Assembly: GCF_030388665.1 (NCBI RefSeq) | Contig: NZ_CP128846.1 | Location: 6,894,501-6,958,500 of the forward strand | DNA length: 64,000 nt | Direction: 5' to 3' | Source: Streptomyces flavofungini | GTDB taxonomy: Bacteria; Actinomycetota; Actinomycetes; Streptomycetales; Streptomycetaceae | In this document: positions 11,172 through 54,145 of the stretch, in pieces | Layout: each line of letters starts with the position of its first letter | Position numbering within the stretch: position 1 is the stretch's first letter | Program-made: the position numbers and the translations under genes | Notes under the pieces: model-generated | Told to the model about the DNA's origin: nothing | Databases searched by the model: none | What the model saw: only the letters and a program-made list of their open reading frames with translations

Positions 11172-13114
11172 CCGAGGAGTTCCCGCACGATCCGCGCCCC
11201 GCGCAGGGACAGCACCGACTCCGGGTGGAACTGCACCCCCGCGAACCCTCGCCCGCGCAGCGCGTGCACCTCCCCGCTCGCCGGGTCCCGGCTCACCTCG
11301 ATCCCGTGCGCAGCCAGTTCGAGCGCCGCCTCCTCGTCGCAGCGCGCCACGAAGCTGTTGTAGAAGCCGACCGTCTCCGCCCGCCCGAACAGGTCGATCG
11401 TCGCCTGCGCACCCTGGTACGGCACCTCCTTGCGCACGATCTCCAGGCCCAGCTCGGCCGCGATCAGCTCATGGCCGAGGCACACCCCCAGCACCGGGTG
11501 CCGGTGGCCGCGGATCAGCTCTGCCGCGAGCGCCCGCAGGAACCGCATCTTCGGGTCCCCGGAGTCGGCGGGGTCGCCCGGACCGGGGCCGAGGACGACG
11601 GGTCCCGCGTGCGTGAGGGCCGCGTCCGCGAGGCCCGGCTCGTCGTAGCGGCGCACCGATACCGCGAGGCCCGACGAGCGCAGCACGTGCGCGAGCATCG
11701 CCGTGAACGTGTCCTCGCCGTCGACCACGAGGGCGTGCCCGGTCAGCTCCGCCGACTGCTCCTGCATCCGCAGCCAGAACGGGGCGAGCCCGGCCCGCCG
11801 CCCGTCCAGGGCCGCCCGCACCCGGGAGTCGTCGGCGAGGGCGGGCCGCGCGCTCTCGTGCCGCGGCCGCCCCGGCCGGACGCCGAGCGCCGCGAGCACC
11901 CCGGCCGCCTTCGCGTGTGTCTCGGCCACCTCCCCGGCCGGGTCCGAGCCGCGCACCAGGGTCGCGCCGACCGGCACCCGCAGGGTCCCGCGCGCGTCGA
12001 TGTCGGCGGTGCGGATCAGGATCGGCGAGTCCAGGGTCTGCGCCCCGCCCGCGTCGCGGCCGATCAGCGCGAGCGCGCCCGCGTAGTAGCCGCGCCCGCC
12101 CGCCTCGTGCCGCCGGATCACCCGGCAGGCGTTCTGCACGGGCGAGCCGGTGACGGTCGCCGCGAACATCGTCTCCCGCAGCACCTCCCGCACGTCCAGC
12201 GACGAACGGCCCCGCAGCTCGTACTCGGTGTGCGCGAGGTGGGCCATCTCCTTCAGGCGCGGGCCGACGACCACTCCGCCGCGGTCGCCGACGGTGCACA
12301 TCATCTTCAGCTCCTCGTCGACGACCATCGACAGCTCCTCGGCCTCCTTGCCGTCGGCGAGGAAACGCAGCAGGCCGTCGACCGTGGGGCCCTGCTGCGG
12401 ATAGCGGTACGTCCCGCTGATCGGGTTCATGACGACCGTCCCGCCCGCCCGTCTCCCACCACCGCCCTCGACCGAGGGCGCTTCGCGCCCACCCCTGCCT
12501 CCTGACATCCGCACATGCACCTCCGGGCTCGCCCCGACCAGCGTCCTGCCGTCCTCGCCCCCGGTGTGCACGACGAACGTCCAGTACGCCCCGCGCTCAC
12601 CCACGAGCAGCCTGCGGAACAGCGCCAGCGCGTCGGCCCGTGCGAACCCGGGGATCTCGCCCCGGTACGTCCGCCGGATCACGAAGTTCGCGCCCTCACC
12701 GGCGCCGATCTCCTCCCGCAGCACCCGGCCGACGGTCCGCGCGTACGCCTCGTCGCTCACGTCGAAGGCGCCCTCCGTCACGCGCACCTCGTGGTCGGGC
12801 AGCGCCGCGAGGGCCTCGGCGAGCGGCAGCTCGTACGTCTCATCGGGCGTGAGGACGGCGAGCGGCGTGCCGTCGTCGGTCACCTCGAAGCCGCGCTCCC
12901 TGATCTGCCGGAAGGGGATGAGGGCGAGACCTTCGGGCAGGTCGGCGAGGCGTTCGCAGGTGGTGACGGGCCCGCGCAGGACCTCCACCGTGTCGTGGTC
13001 GCGGCCGGGGGTGCGGCGGCGCAGCAGGGCGAAAGGGGTCTGGTCGTGGAGCAGTCGGTCGAGGGCGGTGGGGGGAGACGGACGGTCGTCGGTCAGCGGG
13101 TTCTGCGGATCCAT
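11114..13114 (-). CDS. trpE: Fused anthranilate synthase (TrpE-TrpG; chorismate-binding plus glutamine amidotransferase)
   Basis: Converts chorismate and glutamine to anthranilate, the first step of tryptophan synthesis. The 666-residue protein has an N-terminal anthranilate synthase component I domain (about 1-430; marks NPISGTYRYPQQ, DEELKMM, TVTGSPVQNACRVI, GYYAGALALIG, RTADID) joined to a class I glutamine amidotransferase (about 465-650) with GPGPGDP, nucleophile Cys in VLGVCLGHELIA, and the His/Glu pair in GVQFHPESVL. ATG 13114 is the first codon of the conserved frame. Upstream are trpL and an attenuator hairpin, so tryptophan controls it; this also favours anthranilate synthase over a PhzE-type enzyme. 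An in-frame repeat adds about 20 residues before TVVMNPISG. The 3' end overlaps the convergent dehydrogenase gene. Confidence 0.93.
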   Translation of the reverse strand: MDPQNPLTDDRPSPPTALDRLLHDQTPFALLRRRTPGRDHDTVEVLRGPVTTCERLADLPEGLALIPFRQIRERGFEVTDDGTPLAVLTPDETYELPLAEALAALPDHEVRVTEGAFDVSDEAYARTVGRVLREEIGAGEGANFVIRRTYRGEIPGFARADALALFRRLLVGERGAYWTFVVHTGGEDGRTLVGASPEVHVRMSGGRGGREAPSVEGGGGRRAGGTVVMNPISGTYRYPQQGPTVDGLLRFLADGKEAEELSMVVDEELKMMCTVGDRGGVVVGPRLKEMAHLAHTEYELRGRSSLDVREVLRETMFAATVTGSPVQNACRVIRRHEAGGRGYYAGALALIGRDAGGAQTLDSPILIRTADIDARGTLRVPVGATLVRGSDPAGEVAETHAKAAGVLAALGVRPGRPRHESARPALADDSRVRAALDGRRAGLAPFWLRMQEQSAELTGHALVVDGEDTFTAMLAHVLRSSGLAVSVRRYDEPGLADAALTHAGPVVLGPGPGDPADSGDPKMRFLRALAAELIRGHRHPVLGVCLGHELIAAELGLEIVRKEVPYQGAQATIDLFGRAETVGFYNSFVARCDEEAALELAAHGIEVSRDPASGEVHALRGRGFAGVQFHPESVLSLRGARIVRELLGQLGGAAGTRTFSERRPAW
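12443..12496 (-). repeat. In-frame palindromic mini-repeat inside the anthranilate synthase gene
   Basis: Read in the gene orientation this 54-base segment encodes RGGREAPSVEGGGGRRAG, between ASPEVHVRM and TVVMNPISG, which are normally adjacent in this family. It carries the palindromic core GGGCGCGAAGCGCCC. Aligned codon by codon with murD 53105-53158 it is identical at 43 of 54 positions and lies in the same reading frame relative to the repeat. Confidence 0.75.
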
Positions 13115-36601: not shown

Positions 36602-37462
36602 GTGTCGGACCCGATGCGCCCGCCCGTCTCCCCCCGCCCCACGCAAACGGCGTCGCCGCGCTCCGACCCCCCTCGCCCGGGCGCCTCGCTCCGCACCGCC
36701 GTGGTCTGGGACGTCCTCAAGGACGCCCTCGACCGCCGGCTCAAGGCCACGGGCCAGGGGCCGGACGCCACGGCCGCCCTCGACGTGCTCGACACCGGCG
36801 GCGGCAGCGGCAACTTCGCCGTGCCCGTCGCCCGCCTCGGCCACCGCGTCACCGTCGTCGACCCCAGCCCGAACGCCCTGTTCGCGCTCGAGCGCCGCGC
36901 CGCCGAGGCCGGTGTCGCCGACCGCGTGCGCGGCGTGCAGGGCGATGTGCACGGCCTCTTCGACGTGGTCGAGCGCGGCGGGTACGACGCGGTGCTCTGC
37001 CACGGCGTCCTCGAGTACGTGGACGACCCGGCCGAGGGCGTTCGCAACGCGGTCAGCGCCCTGCGCCCCGGCGGAGTGCTGAGCCTGCTCGCCGCGGGCG
37101 TCGGCGGCGCCGTGCTCGCCCGCGCGCTCGCAGGACACTTCACCGAGGCCCGCCGGGCCCTCGACGACCCGGCCGGACGCTGGGGCGAGGGCGACCCGGT
37201 GCCGCGCCGCTTCACCGCCGACCAGCTGACCGAGCTGGTCCAGGGCGCGGGACTGAGCGTCGGCGCCGTGCACGGTGTGCGCGTCTTCGCCGACCTCGTC
37301 CCCGGCGTCCTCGTGGACACCGAGCCCGGCGCCCTGGAGGCGCTGCTCAAGCTGGAGGCCGCCGCCGCCGAGCTGTCCGCCTTCCACTCCGTGGCCACCC
37401 AGCTGCACGTGCTGGGCGAGACCCAGGGGGCGACAGCGGGCACCGAGGCCGACGAGGCCTGA
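36602..37462 (+). CDS. Class I SAM-dependent methyltransferase
   Basis: A 286-residue methyltransferase. Motif I is LDVLDTGGGSGNFAVPVARLG (AdoMet glycine loop), followed by VTVVDPSPNALFALERRA (acidic ribose ligand), the region of motif II/III YDAVLCHGVLEYVDDPAEGV and RPGGVLSLLA. The first 30 residues are Pro/Arg-rich and disordered; the C-terminal half holds a helical cap. The pattern resembles CmoM/UbiE-type small-molecule or tRNA methyltransferases, but the substrate is not known. GTG 36602 follows GAGGAG. Upstream of the DUF3040 gene on the same strand. Confidence 0.88.
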   Translation: MSDPMRPPVSPRPTQTASPRSDPPRPGASLRTAVVWDVLKDALDRRLKATGQGPDATAALDVLDTGGGSGNFAVPVARLGHRVTVVDPSPNALFALERRAAEAGVADRVRGVQGDVHGLFDVVERGGYDAVLCHGVLEYVDDPAEGVRNAVSALRPGGVLSLLAAGVGGAVLARALAGHFTEARRALDDPAGRWGEGDPVPRRFTADQLTELVQGAGLSVGAVHGVRVFADLVPGVLVDTEPGALEALLKLEAAAAELSAFHSVATQLHVLGETQGATAGTEADEA

Positions 37463-51570: not shown

Positions 51571-52637
51571 GGCAGATCCTCTTCGCGGGTGTGATCGGGC
51601 TCTTCCTGACCCTGGTCGGTACGCCCCTGCTGATCAAGCTCCTGGCCCGCAAGGGCTACGGCCAGTTCATCCGGGACGACGGCCCGCGCGAGCACCACAG
51701 CAAGCGCGGTACGCCGACGATGGGTGGCATCGCCTTCATCCTGGCCACGCTCATCGCGTACTTCCTCACGAAGGTCATCACCGGCGGCGAGTTCACGCTC
51801 TCCGGCCTGCTGGTGCTCTTCCTGATGGCGGGCATGGGCCTGGTCGGCTTCCTCGACGACTACATCAAGATCGTCAAGCAGCGTTCGCTCGGTCTGCGCG
51901 CCAAGGCCAAGATGGCGGGTCAGCTGATCGTCGGCATCGGCTTCGCCGTGCTCGCCCTGAACTGGCCCGACAACCGCAACCAGACCCCCGCCTCCACCAA
52001 GCTGTCGTTCGTCACGGACTTCGGCTGGTCGATCGGCCCGGTCCTGTTCGTGGTCTGGGCGCTGTTCATGATCCTCGCGATGTCGAACGGCGTGAACCTC
52101 ACCGACGGCCTCGACGGTCTCGCCACCGGCGCCTCCGTGATGGTCTTCGGCGCCTACACCTTCATCGGCGTCTGGCAGTACCAGGAGTCCTGCGCCAACG
52201 CGAACACCCTCACCAACCCGGAGGCGTGTTTCGAGGTCAGAGACCCACTCGACCTCGCGGTCGTGGCCTCCGCGCTGATGGGCGCCTGCTTCGGCTTCCT
52301 GTGGTGGAACACCTCGCCCGCGAAGATCTTCATGGGTGACACCGGCTCCCTCGCCCTCGGCGGCGCGCTCGCCGGACTCGCGATCTGCTCCCGCACGGAG
52401 CTGCTGCTCGCGCTCCTCGGCGGTCTCTTCGTCCTGATCACCATGTCCGTGGTCATCCAGGTCGGCTCCTTCCGCCTCACCGGCAAACGCGTCTTCCGGA
52501 TGGCGCCACTCCAGCACCACTTCGAACTCAAGGGGTGGTCGGAAGTCCTTGTCGTGGTCCGCTTCTGGATCATCCAGGGCATGTGCGTGATCGTCGGACT
52601 CGGACTCTTCTACGCAGGGTGGGCGGCCACCAAGTGA
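51567..52637 (+). CDS. mraY: Phospho-N-acetylmuramoyl-pentapeptide transferase MraY
   Basis: Membrane enzyme that makes lipid I. The 356-residue protein has about ten membrane helices and the family marks REHHSKRGTPTMGGIAFI, FLDDYIKIVKQRS (metal-binding Asp pair), SNGVNLTDGLDGLATG and FMGDTGSLALGGALAG, then RMAPLQHHFEL. ATG 51567 overlaps the murF stop and its stop overlaps the murD GTG (GTGA). Confidence 0.98.
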   Translation: MRQILFAGVIGLFLTLVGTPLLIKLLARKGYGQFIRDDGPREHHSKRGTPTMGGIAFILATLIAYFLTKVITGGEFTLSGLLVLFLMAGMGLVGFLDDYIKIVKQRSLGLRAKAKMAGQLIVGIGFAVLALNWPDNRNQTPASTKLSFVTDFGWSIGPVLFVVWALFMILAMSNGVNLTDGLDGLATGASVMVFGAYTFIGVWQYQESCANANTLTNPEACFEVRDPLDLAVVASALMGACFGFLWWNTSPAKIFMGDTGSLALGGALAGLAICSRTELLLALLGGLFVLITMSVVIQVGSFRLTGKRVFRMAPLQHHFELKGWSEVLVVVRFWIIQGMCVIVGLGLFYAGWAATK

Positions 52638-54145
52638 CCAGCTGGCAGGGCAGGAACGTCACCGTCGCCGGGCTCGGCGTGAGCGGCCTCAGCGCCGCCC
52701 GCGCGCTCGCGGGCCTCGGCGCGGTGGTGACCGTCGTGGACGGCGGCGACGGCGAGGCCCAGCGGGCGCGCGCCGCGGAGCTGGCGGGCACCGGCATCTC
52801 CGTGCGCCTCGGGGACGCCGAGACGCTTCCCGACGGCACCGACCTCGTCGTCACCTCGCCCGGCTGGAAGCCCTCGTCGCCGCTGTTCACGGCCGCCGCC
52901 GACGCGGGCGTGGACGTGGTCGGCGACGTCGAGATCGCCTGGCGCCTGCGCGGCCCCGACGCCGCGCCCTGGCTCGCGATCACCGGCACCAACGGCAAGA
53001 CCACCACCACGCAGATGCTGGCGTCGATCCTGGCCGCGGCCGGGCTGCGCACGGCGGCCGTGGGCAACATCGGCACCCCGATCGTGGACGTGGTCCTCGA
53101 AGACAGGGCGGCGCGCGAAGCGCGTTCGATTGAGGACGGTGGTGGGCGACGGGAGGGAGACGCGTACGACGTCCTCGCCGTCGAGCTGTCCTCCTACCAG
53201 CTGCACTGGGCGCCCTCCCTGCGCGTCCACTCGGCGGCCGTCCTGAACCTGGCGCCCGACCACCTCGACTGGCACGGCTCCATGGAGGCGTACGCCGCCG
53301 ACAAGGGCCGCATCTACGAGGGCAACCAGGTCGCCTGCGTCTACAACGCGGCCGACAAGGCGACGGAGGACCTGGTCCGCGAGGCCGACGTCGAAGAGGG
53401 CTGCCGTGCCATCGGTTTCACACTGACCGCGCCCGCCCCCTCGCAACTGGGCGTCGTGGACGGCATCCTGGTCGACCGTGCCTTCGTGCCGGACCGCCAG
53501 AAGCAGGCCCAGGAGCTCGCCGAGTTCTCCGACTTGCTCCCGCCCGCCGCCCGCCGCCCTTCCGAGGAAGGCGCCTCGCGCCCCTTGAAACCCGCCCCGC
53601 ACACCATCGCCAACGCCCTCGCCGCCGCGGGCCTCGCGCGCGCGTTCGGAGTGGAGGCGGCGGCGGTGCGCGAGGGGCTGCGGGCCTTCCGGCCGGACGC
53701 CCATCGCATCGAGCACGTGGCCGACGTCGAGGACGTCGCCTACATCGACGACTCCAAGGCCACCAACACCCACGCCGCGCAGGCGTCGTTGGCGGCGTAC
53801 GAGTCGATCGTCTGGATCGCCGGTGGCCTCGCCAAGGGCGCCACCTTCGACGAGCTGGTCGCGGGCGCGGCGGGGCGGCTGCGGGGAGTGGTCCTGATCG
53901 GCGCCGACCGCGCGCTGATCCGCGAAGCGCTCGCGCGACACGCGCCCGAAGTACCCGTCGTGGACCTAGACCGGACGGACACTGGGGCGATGTCCGAGGC
54001 CGTACGGCAGGCCGCGCGGCTCGCGCGGCCGGGGGACACCGTCCTGATGGCGCCGGCCTGTGCGTCGATGGACATGTTCACCAACTACAACAAGCGTGGT
54101 GACGCGTTCGCGGCAGCCGTCCGCGAACTCGGCGCGAGCGCCTGA
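52634..54145 (+). CDS. murD: UDP-MurNAc-L-Ala:D-Glu ligase MurD with two in-frame insertions
   Basis: Adds D-Glu to UDP-MurNAc-L-Ala. The 503-residue enzyme has VTVAGLGVSGLSAARAL, VTSPGWKPSSPLF, ATP loop WLAITGTNGKTTTTQML, LSSYQLHWAPSLR, LAPDHLDWHGS, DDSKATNTHAAQASL, VWIAGGLAKG and LMAPACASMDMFTNY. Two segments interrupt usually continuous regions: about 21 residues after GTPIVDVVLE (REARSIEDGGGRR part, DNA 53102-53163) and about 16 residues after LLPPAA (RRPSEEGASRPLKP, DNA 53546-53593). Both come from the same repeat family as the anthranilate synthase insertion, in opposite orientations, and keep the frame. They fall between motifs, so activity is probably retained. GTG 52634 overlaps the mraY stop. 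Confidence 0.96.
   Translation: MTSWQGRNVTVAGLGVSGLSAARALAGLGAVVTVVDGGDGEAQRARAAELAGTGISVRLGDAETLPDGTDLVVTSPGWKPSSPLFTAAADAGVDVVGDVEIAWRLRGPDAAPWLAITGTNGKTTTTQMLASILAAAGLRTAAVGNIGTPIVDVVLEDRAAREARSIEDGGGRREGDAYDVLAVELSSYQLHWAPSLRVHSAAVLNLAPDHLDWHGSMEAYAADKGRIYEGNQVACVYNAADKATEDLVREADVEEGCRAIGFTLTAPAPSQLGVVDGILVDRAFVPDRQKQAQELAEFSDLLPPAARRPSEEGASRPLKPAPHTIANALAAAGLARAFGVEAAAVREGLRAFRPDAHRIEHVADVEDVAYIDDSKATNTHAAQASLAAYESIVWIAGGLAKGATFDELVAGAAGRLRGVVLIGADRALIREALARHAPEVPVVDLDRTDTGAMSEAVRQAARLARPGDTVLMAPACASMDMFTNYNKRGDAFAAAVRELGASA
53105..53158 (+). repeat. In-frame palindromic mini-repeat inside murD, copy 1
   Basis: Encodes RAAREARSIEDGGGRREG in murD. Palindromic core GCGCGAAGCGCG. It aligns codon by codon to the copy in the anthranilate synthase gene with 43 of 54 identical bases, in the same orientation relative to the host gene. 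Confidence 0.75.
53546..53593 (-). repeat. In-frame palindromic mini-repeat inside murD, copy 2 (opposite orientation)
   Basis: Read with murD it encodes ARRPSEEGASRPLKP; read on the opposite strand it gives GREAPSSEGRRAAGG, almost the peptide of the anthranilate synthase copy (GREAPSVEGGGGRRAGG). It is therefore the same element inserted the other way round, also keeping the murD frame. Confidence 0.7.

Follow-up and report, generated by a model that had tools for sequence, protein, structure and literature searches.

Short palindromic elements which reside in frame inside protein-coding genes are best known from Rickettsia. The Rickettsia palindromic elements (RPEs) are repeats of about 105-150 bp with long stem-loops; several families are described, and they are found in frame in conserved genes, sometimes twice in the same gene (PMC3733652, PMC10969869 and PMC2229807). 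Intragenic REPs have been reported as in-frame insertions in other bacteria, and the CGTC REPs, which include RPE-4 and RPE-6 and are listed for five phyla other than that of Streptomyces, are small hairpins, some of them intragenic, without an associated transposase. They are characterized by a terminal CGTC, stems of 8-9 bp which almost always begin with A-T pairs, loops of 4-5 nt and a CCA tail (PMC3733652). None of the three papers mentions Streptomyces in its main text. A search of the literature on Streptomyces repeats, palindromes, MITEs and REP/RAYT systems and on the Rickettsia elements found no description of the family presented here; the coverage of this search was limited, which makes it weak evidence of absence.

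The family was met in murD in a window of 64,000 nucleotides of the Streptomyces flavofungini chromosome. In Streptomyces the family is large, its empty sites are clear and its target sites recur; a second genus, where only 3 of 43 fetched copies are located inside genes in frame, serves as a contrast. This makes it possible to test how a repeat moves without a known transposase and whether its sequence evolves toward being tolerated inside proteins.

Two inserts in murD

The original prediction was that one palindromic element had entered murD twice, in opposite orientations and each time with a length which keeps the frame. Both peptides are present in the sequence at the places given, the orientations are opposite, and the net lengths, 51 and 48 bp when S. 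alboflavus, S. aurantiacus and locus L091 are used as reference, preserve the frame (Table 1).

Table 1. Coordinates in the window of murD, its two inserts and two further copies of the element, one of them probable.
Feature	Position	Strand	Remarks
murD host gene	52637..54145	+	matches solved MurD chains
murD insert 1	53105..53158	+	in frame, 51 bp net; encodes the peptide RAAREARSIEDGGGRREG; ends approximate by a few bases
Insert 1 hairpin CGCGC-GAA-GCGCG	53112..53124	+	from sequence and stem search
Insert 1 conserved G-rich tail	53132..53157	+	2 mismatches to the pattern
murD insert 2	53546..53593	-	in frame, 48 bp net; the element is antisense to murD; murD peptide AARRPSEEGASRPLKP; ends approximate
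Insert 2 hairpin GGCGC-GAG-GCGCC	53570..53582	-	from sequence and alignment with the G287 copy; loop departs from GNA
Third in-frame copy, trpE/G fusion gene	12432..12512	-	net 57 bp; hairpin 12476-12490, tail 12444-12469
Probable diverged copy	36617..36670	-	E 0.015

The murD gene of S. alboflavus, which is 95% identical at the DNA level, is without both inserts. Among 80 other named Streptomyces murD loci 77 are without insert 1 and three carry it (S. apocyni, S. longispororuber JCM 4784 and NRRL B-1347), whereas a comparable insert at nearly the same position as insert 2 is found in one of the 80 (S. pathocidini). Outside the named loci, genome G287 has an antisense copy at the second site. 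Loci L108, L142 and L156 have 4-5 additional residues at the first site and L135 has three, slightly downstream; L108 and L142 have additional residues at the second site also, and all of these gains look like ordinary loop variation. The alignment of murD genes which had been suggested as a check gives a clean presence or absence among the named loci. Three solved MurD sequences are gapped at the position of insert 1. The predicted structure of the protein is weak (mean pLDDT 69, and below 50 for residues 249-322, which contain insert 2); in this model insert 1 would lie at the end of a helix, ahead of a strand.

With insert 1 as query further copies are found in the same genome with E values of 2.5e-8, 1.6e-7 and 6.8e-6. 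Insert 2 is a weak query on its own, with a best match of 7.2e-6 over 32 bp and a next match of 0.007. We have counted it as a member of the family because the G287 copy at the same site shares with it the stem and linker, GGCGCGARGCGCCTTCCTCGGAAGGG, and has a tail one mismatch from the consensus. Judged by its sequence, insert 2 is a real but eroded member, whose loop is GAG and whose tail has lost the consensus. A scan of positions 53000-53700 against Rfam gave a single match, far below the cut-off.

The divergence from S. alboflavus is locally higher in murD at 53057-53105 and 53597-53717, which is the element's 5' side of both inserts. A mutation burst beside the inserts was considered; the divergence is raised, but rare bases are clustered only slightly and we make no claim for it.

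Elsewhere in the window, the surroundings of the probable diverged copy contain, by eye, a better-preserved copy in other genomes (loci L243 and L247). A second match in the trpE/G gene (13061-13086, three mismatches) has no stem and probably arose by chance.

Architecture of the element

A copy has AAG(R)GGG as its 5' edge. A stem of about 4-6 bp follows, capped by a cGNAg triloop, and a short linker leads from it to a conserved tail near RAGGGYGGTGGYGGGMGACGGGCGGG; the element has a length of about 45 to 60 letters. The search constrained the tail only, and the hairpin upstream of it is thus an independent finding. A perfect stem of at least 4 pairs with a loop of 3 nt is present in 87 of 122 distinct copies (shuffles 18%), and the loop is GNA in 74 of these 87 (shuffles 6%). 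CGNAG occurs 9-24 nt upstream of the tail in 108 of the 122 copies, against 15 in shuffles; the loops are GAA in 52 cases, GGA in 28, GCA in 22 and GTA in 6. In the second genus the layout is the same, with CGNAG in 36 of 43 fetched copies.

Changes in one arm of the stem are compensated in the other. In a set of 100 unique arm pairs, stem level 2 is Watson-Crick paired in 92 (shuffled mean 48.7, maximum 63) and level 5 in 78 (shuffled mean 39.9, maximum 54), and levels 2 to 6 all exceed each of 1000 shuffles, the strength of this covariation being somewhat overstated because copies related by descent are not independent. In the same set, pairing at levels 7 and 8 does not rise above the shuffle maximum. 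The folding energy of single sequences gave no signal in three copies (z of -0.85 and +1.96, and of -0.78 for the copy in trpE); the hairpin is evident only when copies are compared. C-GNA-G loops form unusually stable DNA minihairpins. The tail fits G3-N7-G3-N4-G3-N1-G3 and is by this pattern a possible candidate for a quadruplex.

In loci L331, L341, L342, L343, L244 and L081 a longer and different palindrome, GGGGGTCCCC..., replaces the usual hairpin ahead of the same G-rich tail. The parts therefore look modular, suggesting that hairpin modules are exchanged. One site in three genomes (L267, L309 and L385) has three different, mostly well-paired stems, which could be due either to re-insertion or to turnover of the stem.

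Size and distribution of the family

The family was searched for with the tail pattern, allowing up to three mismatches, and the reversed pattern served as control. The search of this genome for more copies, also suggested with the original prediction, gave 21 places (reversed pattern 0), of which at least one, the stemless second trpE/G match, is probably due to chance. In 295 Streptomyces genomes the pattern has 1140 matches in 251 genomes, from 0 to 26 per genome. The reversed pattern has, by a hand count, about 119 matches in about 92 of the 295 genomes, with at most three in any of them, so that a single match can be chance; of the 1140 matches chance may account for roughly one in ten. 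In an order-wide sample all ten genomes of the second genus match, at 2 to 27 places each, and none of five genomes from three further genera does.

The 21 matches compare with 9 in S. alboflavus and 4 in S. aurantiacus. They span 23% to 83% of the main contig, and the 26 places in genome G098 span 18% to 90%; a bias away from the chromosome arms is only suggested by this. Both strands are used and intergenic copies occur also. Loci L364 (G220), L304 (G199), L448 and L465 contain head-to-tail arrays of two to four copies with a spacing of 44-56 bp.

Empty sites and net lengths

Empty sites were looked for with the joined flanks of 20 copies, for five of which no relative was fetched. Relatives with empty sites were found for trpE/G, an oxyR-like regulator, truB, proB, a HelR-like helicase, an ABC exporter, an amino-acid permease, glnE, an SseB protein and proline dehydrogenase, in which the element is antisense; some of these host gene names scored below curated cut-offs. 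Of 14 copies tested against S. alboflavus, 12 have an empty site there, 10 of them coding, and two sites are filled (the HelR-like gene and L051). That close relatives are without most of the copies tested is most simply explained by recent gain.

The net length is a multiple of three in 12 of 12 coding sites when both murD sites are included: 57 bp in trpE/G; 54 bp in the oxyR-like gene, truB, proB and proline dehydrogenase; 51 bp in the ABC exporter, glnE and pgi; 48 bp in the permease; and 45 bp in SseB. Coding sites of this genome thus range from 45 to 57 bp. The HelR-like site has a net length of 48 bp relative to S. aurantiacus. Of the remaining two empty sites, that of the intergenic L056 copy gives 54 bp, and that of L042, at the end of a gene, a difference of 76 bp, which is not a multiple of three. 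No clear target-site duplication is seen by eye when the 12 copies and the two murD sites are compared with S. alboflavus, where junction bases have diverged; the junctions are imperfect and bases differ near the ends. By eye the empty sites are G-rich on the tail side, which may reflect tolerant loops of Gly, Asp and Glu.

Reading frame and position in genes

From the 1140 Streptomyces matches 158 distinct copies were fetched, and their position was analyzed with a classifier based on GC content at codon positions, with control positions drawn from the same loci; copies at the same site in several species were counted separately. For fifty copies, 39 sense and 11 antisense, both flanks belong to one gene and share its open frame; among the controls this is so for 1204 of 3060 positions. 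A further 60 copies have a call on one side only and 33 on neither. Coding flanks in different frames were found for 15 copies (controls 60 of 3060); no clear frame-shifting copy is seen, because 14 of the 15 are at the ends or starts of neighbouring genes and the last one (L300) abuts a run of N.

The frame which reads GGGGRRAG is used by 32 of the 39 sense copies and the other frames by 5 and 2, a bias which is partly trivial because one of the other frames often meets TGA in the linker; the third frame is open, yet still rare. The original prediction spoke of an element selected or designed to be read through. The preferred use of one frame and the near-random occupancy of coding sequence give this only indirect support.

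In the second genus the 3 in-frame copies inside genes compare with 293 of 820 controls; in the rest the frames differ in 4, 14 are called on one side and 22 are uncalled. In that genus the behaviour of the element is closer to that of an ordinary intergenic REP.

In nine antisense copies, spread over six sites, the distance from the beginning of the copy to the first base of a probable start codon is 4 or 7 nt; several of these copies lie at ATGA-type overlaps, and they are read as an N-terminal extension. Antisense copies just past the start codon, extending the N-terminus of a protein which by eye is PurQ-like, are seen in L387 (S. apocyni) and L392 (S. longispororuber). In L321 (genome G030) a gene which by eye is nadB-like has an internal sense copy and two antisense copies in an apparent N-terminal extension, and is a second case of repeated insertion into one conserved gene. 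Between the inverted pair in this locus the frames look by eye like panC and nadB, and no transposase was seen.

Models for the spread of the element

Copies of the family are dispersed over the genome, present or absent at given sites, covarying in structure and resident in frame in conserved genes. We consider it likely that both inserts in murD are copies from a family of short, non-autonomous palindromic repeats of Streptomyces, which would move as single strands and be subject to selection for keeping the frame. According to this model the element moves as folded single-stranded DNA, and a factor supplied in trans would recognize it by the hairpin and the G-rich tail; recognition as a folded single strand is suggested because the hairpin covaries while the tail is constant. 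The element would join by preference where the target is G-rich and similar to its own 3' end, as suggested by the G-rich tail side of the empty sites together with the tandem arrays. Purifying selection would then retain only the lengths which preserve the frame, in tolerant loops or just past start codons, where the tail would usually be translated as a flexible GGGGRRAG linker, and alleles with inserts may pass between species by homologous recombination.

The insertions could also be old and now immobile, their patchiness being the result of interspecies homologous recombination or loss without any current transposition. In the murD tree the window strain groups with S. alboflavus (0.88) and S. 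aurantiacus (0.99), both without inserts, and the carriers of insert 1 (the window strain, S. apocyni, and S. longispororuber with NRRL B-1347) do not form a single clade, some nodes being weak (0.10); both re-insertion and transfer of alleles by recombination are therefore possible. For copies at the same site 39 pairs remained of 42, after removal of one self pair and two pairs from one genome reached twice, and their identity is 0.73 to 0.97 with a mean of 0.83, against 0.72 (sd 0.05) for copies at different sites. This likeness, the decayed state of the insert 1 copy in S. longispororuber and the raised divergence beside both murD inserts agree with immobility. On the other hand, the absence of 12 of the 14 tested copies from a single close relative demands many transfers or losses, 10 of the 39 same-site pairs do not exceed the upper 5% limit for different-site pairs (0.797), and the number of matches varies from 0 to 26 between genomes. 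High same-site identity fits common descent or transfer and low identity fits re-insertion, and probably both act; complete immobility we regard as possible, though less probable than a mobile family. The claim that each murD copy transposed separately into this lineage is not established, because the scattered carriers of insert 1 and the likeness at the same site also fit recombination; the two copies in both orientations stand.

A mobile family of REP elements could also be moved by an IS200/IS605-type Y1 transposase (RAYT), lost by the strain or acting in trans, as GTAG REPs elsewhere are thought to be RAYT-moved (PMC3733652). The number of matches is slightly higher in genomes with Y1 genes (mean 4.6 vs 3.5, p 0.03), but this genome (G000) has no Y1 match, Y1 is absent in 8 of the 13 genomes with at least 12 matches, and no element tail with up to three mismatches was found within 1.5 kb on each side of Y1 genes at 30 loci. 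A terminal GTAG tag is not seen by eye either, and we find this mechanism unlikely. It is highly improbable that no mobile element is involved and that the inserts arose by local GC-rich codon expansion or slippage in variable loops: the GC-rich sequence and the abundance of Gly, Asp and Glu in the host loops would agree with this, but one sequence occurs at many unrelated loci, on both strands and between genes, the control pattern is absent from this genome, and the shared sequence and the covarying stem contradict such an origin. A more far-reaching form of the single-strand model can be put forward tentatively, in which a still-active actinobacterial element would use the cGNAg minihairpin and the G-rich, possibly quadruplex-forming tail as signal for an undescribed factor other than Y1, its frame being shaped to let it land in essential genes as a harmless linker.

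Comparison with known systems

Classical MITEs have terminal inverted repeats; the ends of the Streptomyces element, AAG(R)GGG and GGGCGGG, are by eye not of this kind. MIRUs are mycobacterial, and thus actinobacterial, repeats at overlapping stop and start codons; they are intergenic and longer, and the nine antisense copies near likely start codons resemble them, MIRUs being compared by description only. The GTAG REPs with RAYT share with the Streptomyces element the dispersed small hairpins, and differ from it by the terminal GTAG, judged by eye, and the linked Y1 transposase. The likeness to the CGTC REPs consists of small hairpins, some of them intragenic, and no associated transposase. 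However, CGTC in the Streptomyces element is on the C-rich strand, internal and far from the stem, the loops have 3 nt, and no copy layout is found in which a terminal CGTC adjoins a stem of 8-9 bp with A-T at the first two pairs and a loop of 4-5 nt.

The resemblance to the Rickettsia elements which had been pointed out originally holds in kind, by description. Two marks of a protein-coding palindromic element, dispersal in the genome and in-frame insertion with empty orthologues, are found, the reading frames of the host genes are intact, and like the RPEs the Streptomyces element is palindromic, dispersed and in frame in conserved genes. It differs in its net length of 45-57 bp, its short cGNAg hairpin, its G-rich tail and its phylum, the comparison being by description only. 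The structural marks that were tested for CGTC REPs and GTAG REPs are not seen in the Streptomyces family, and it works like the RPEs and the intragenic REPs.
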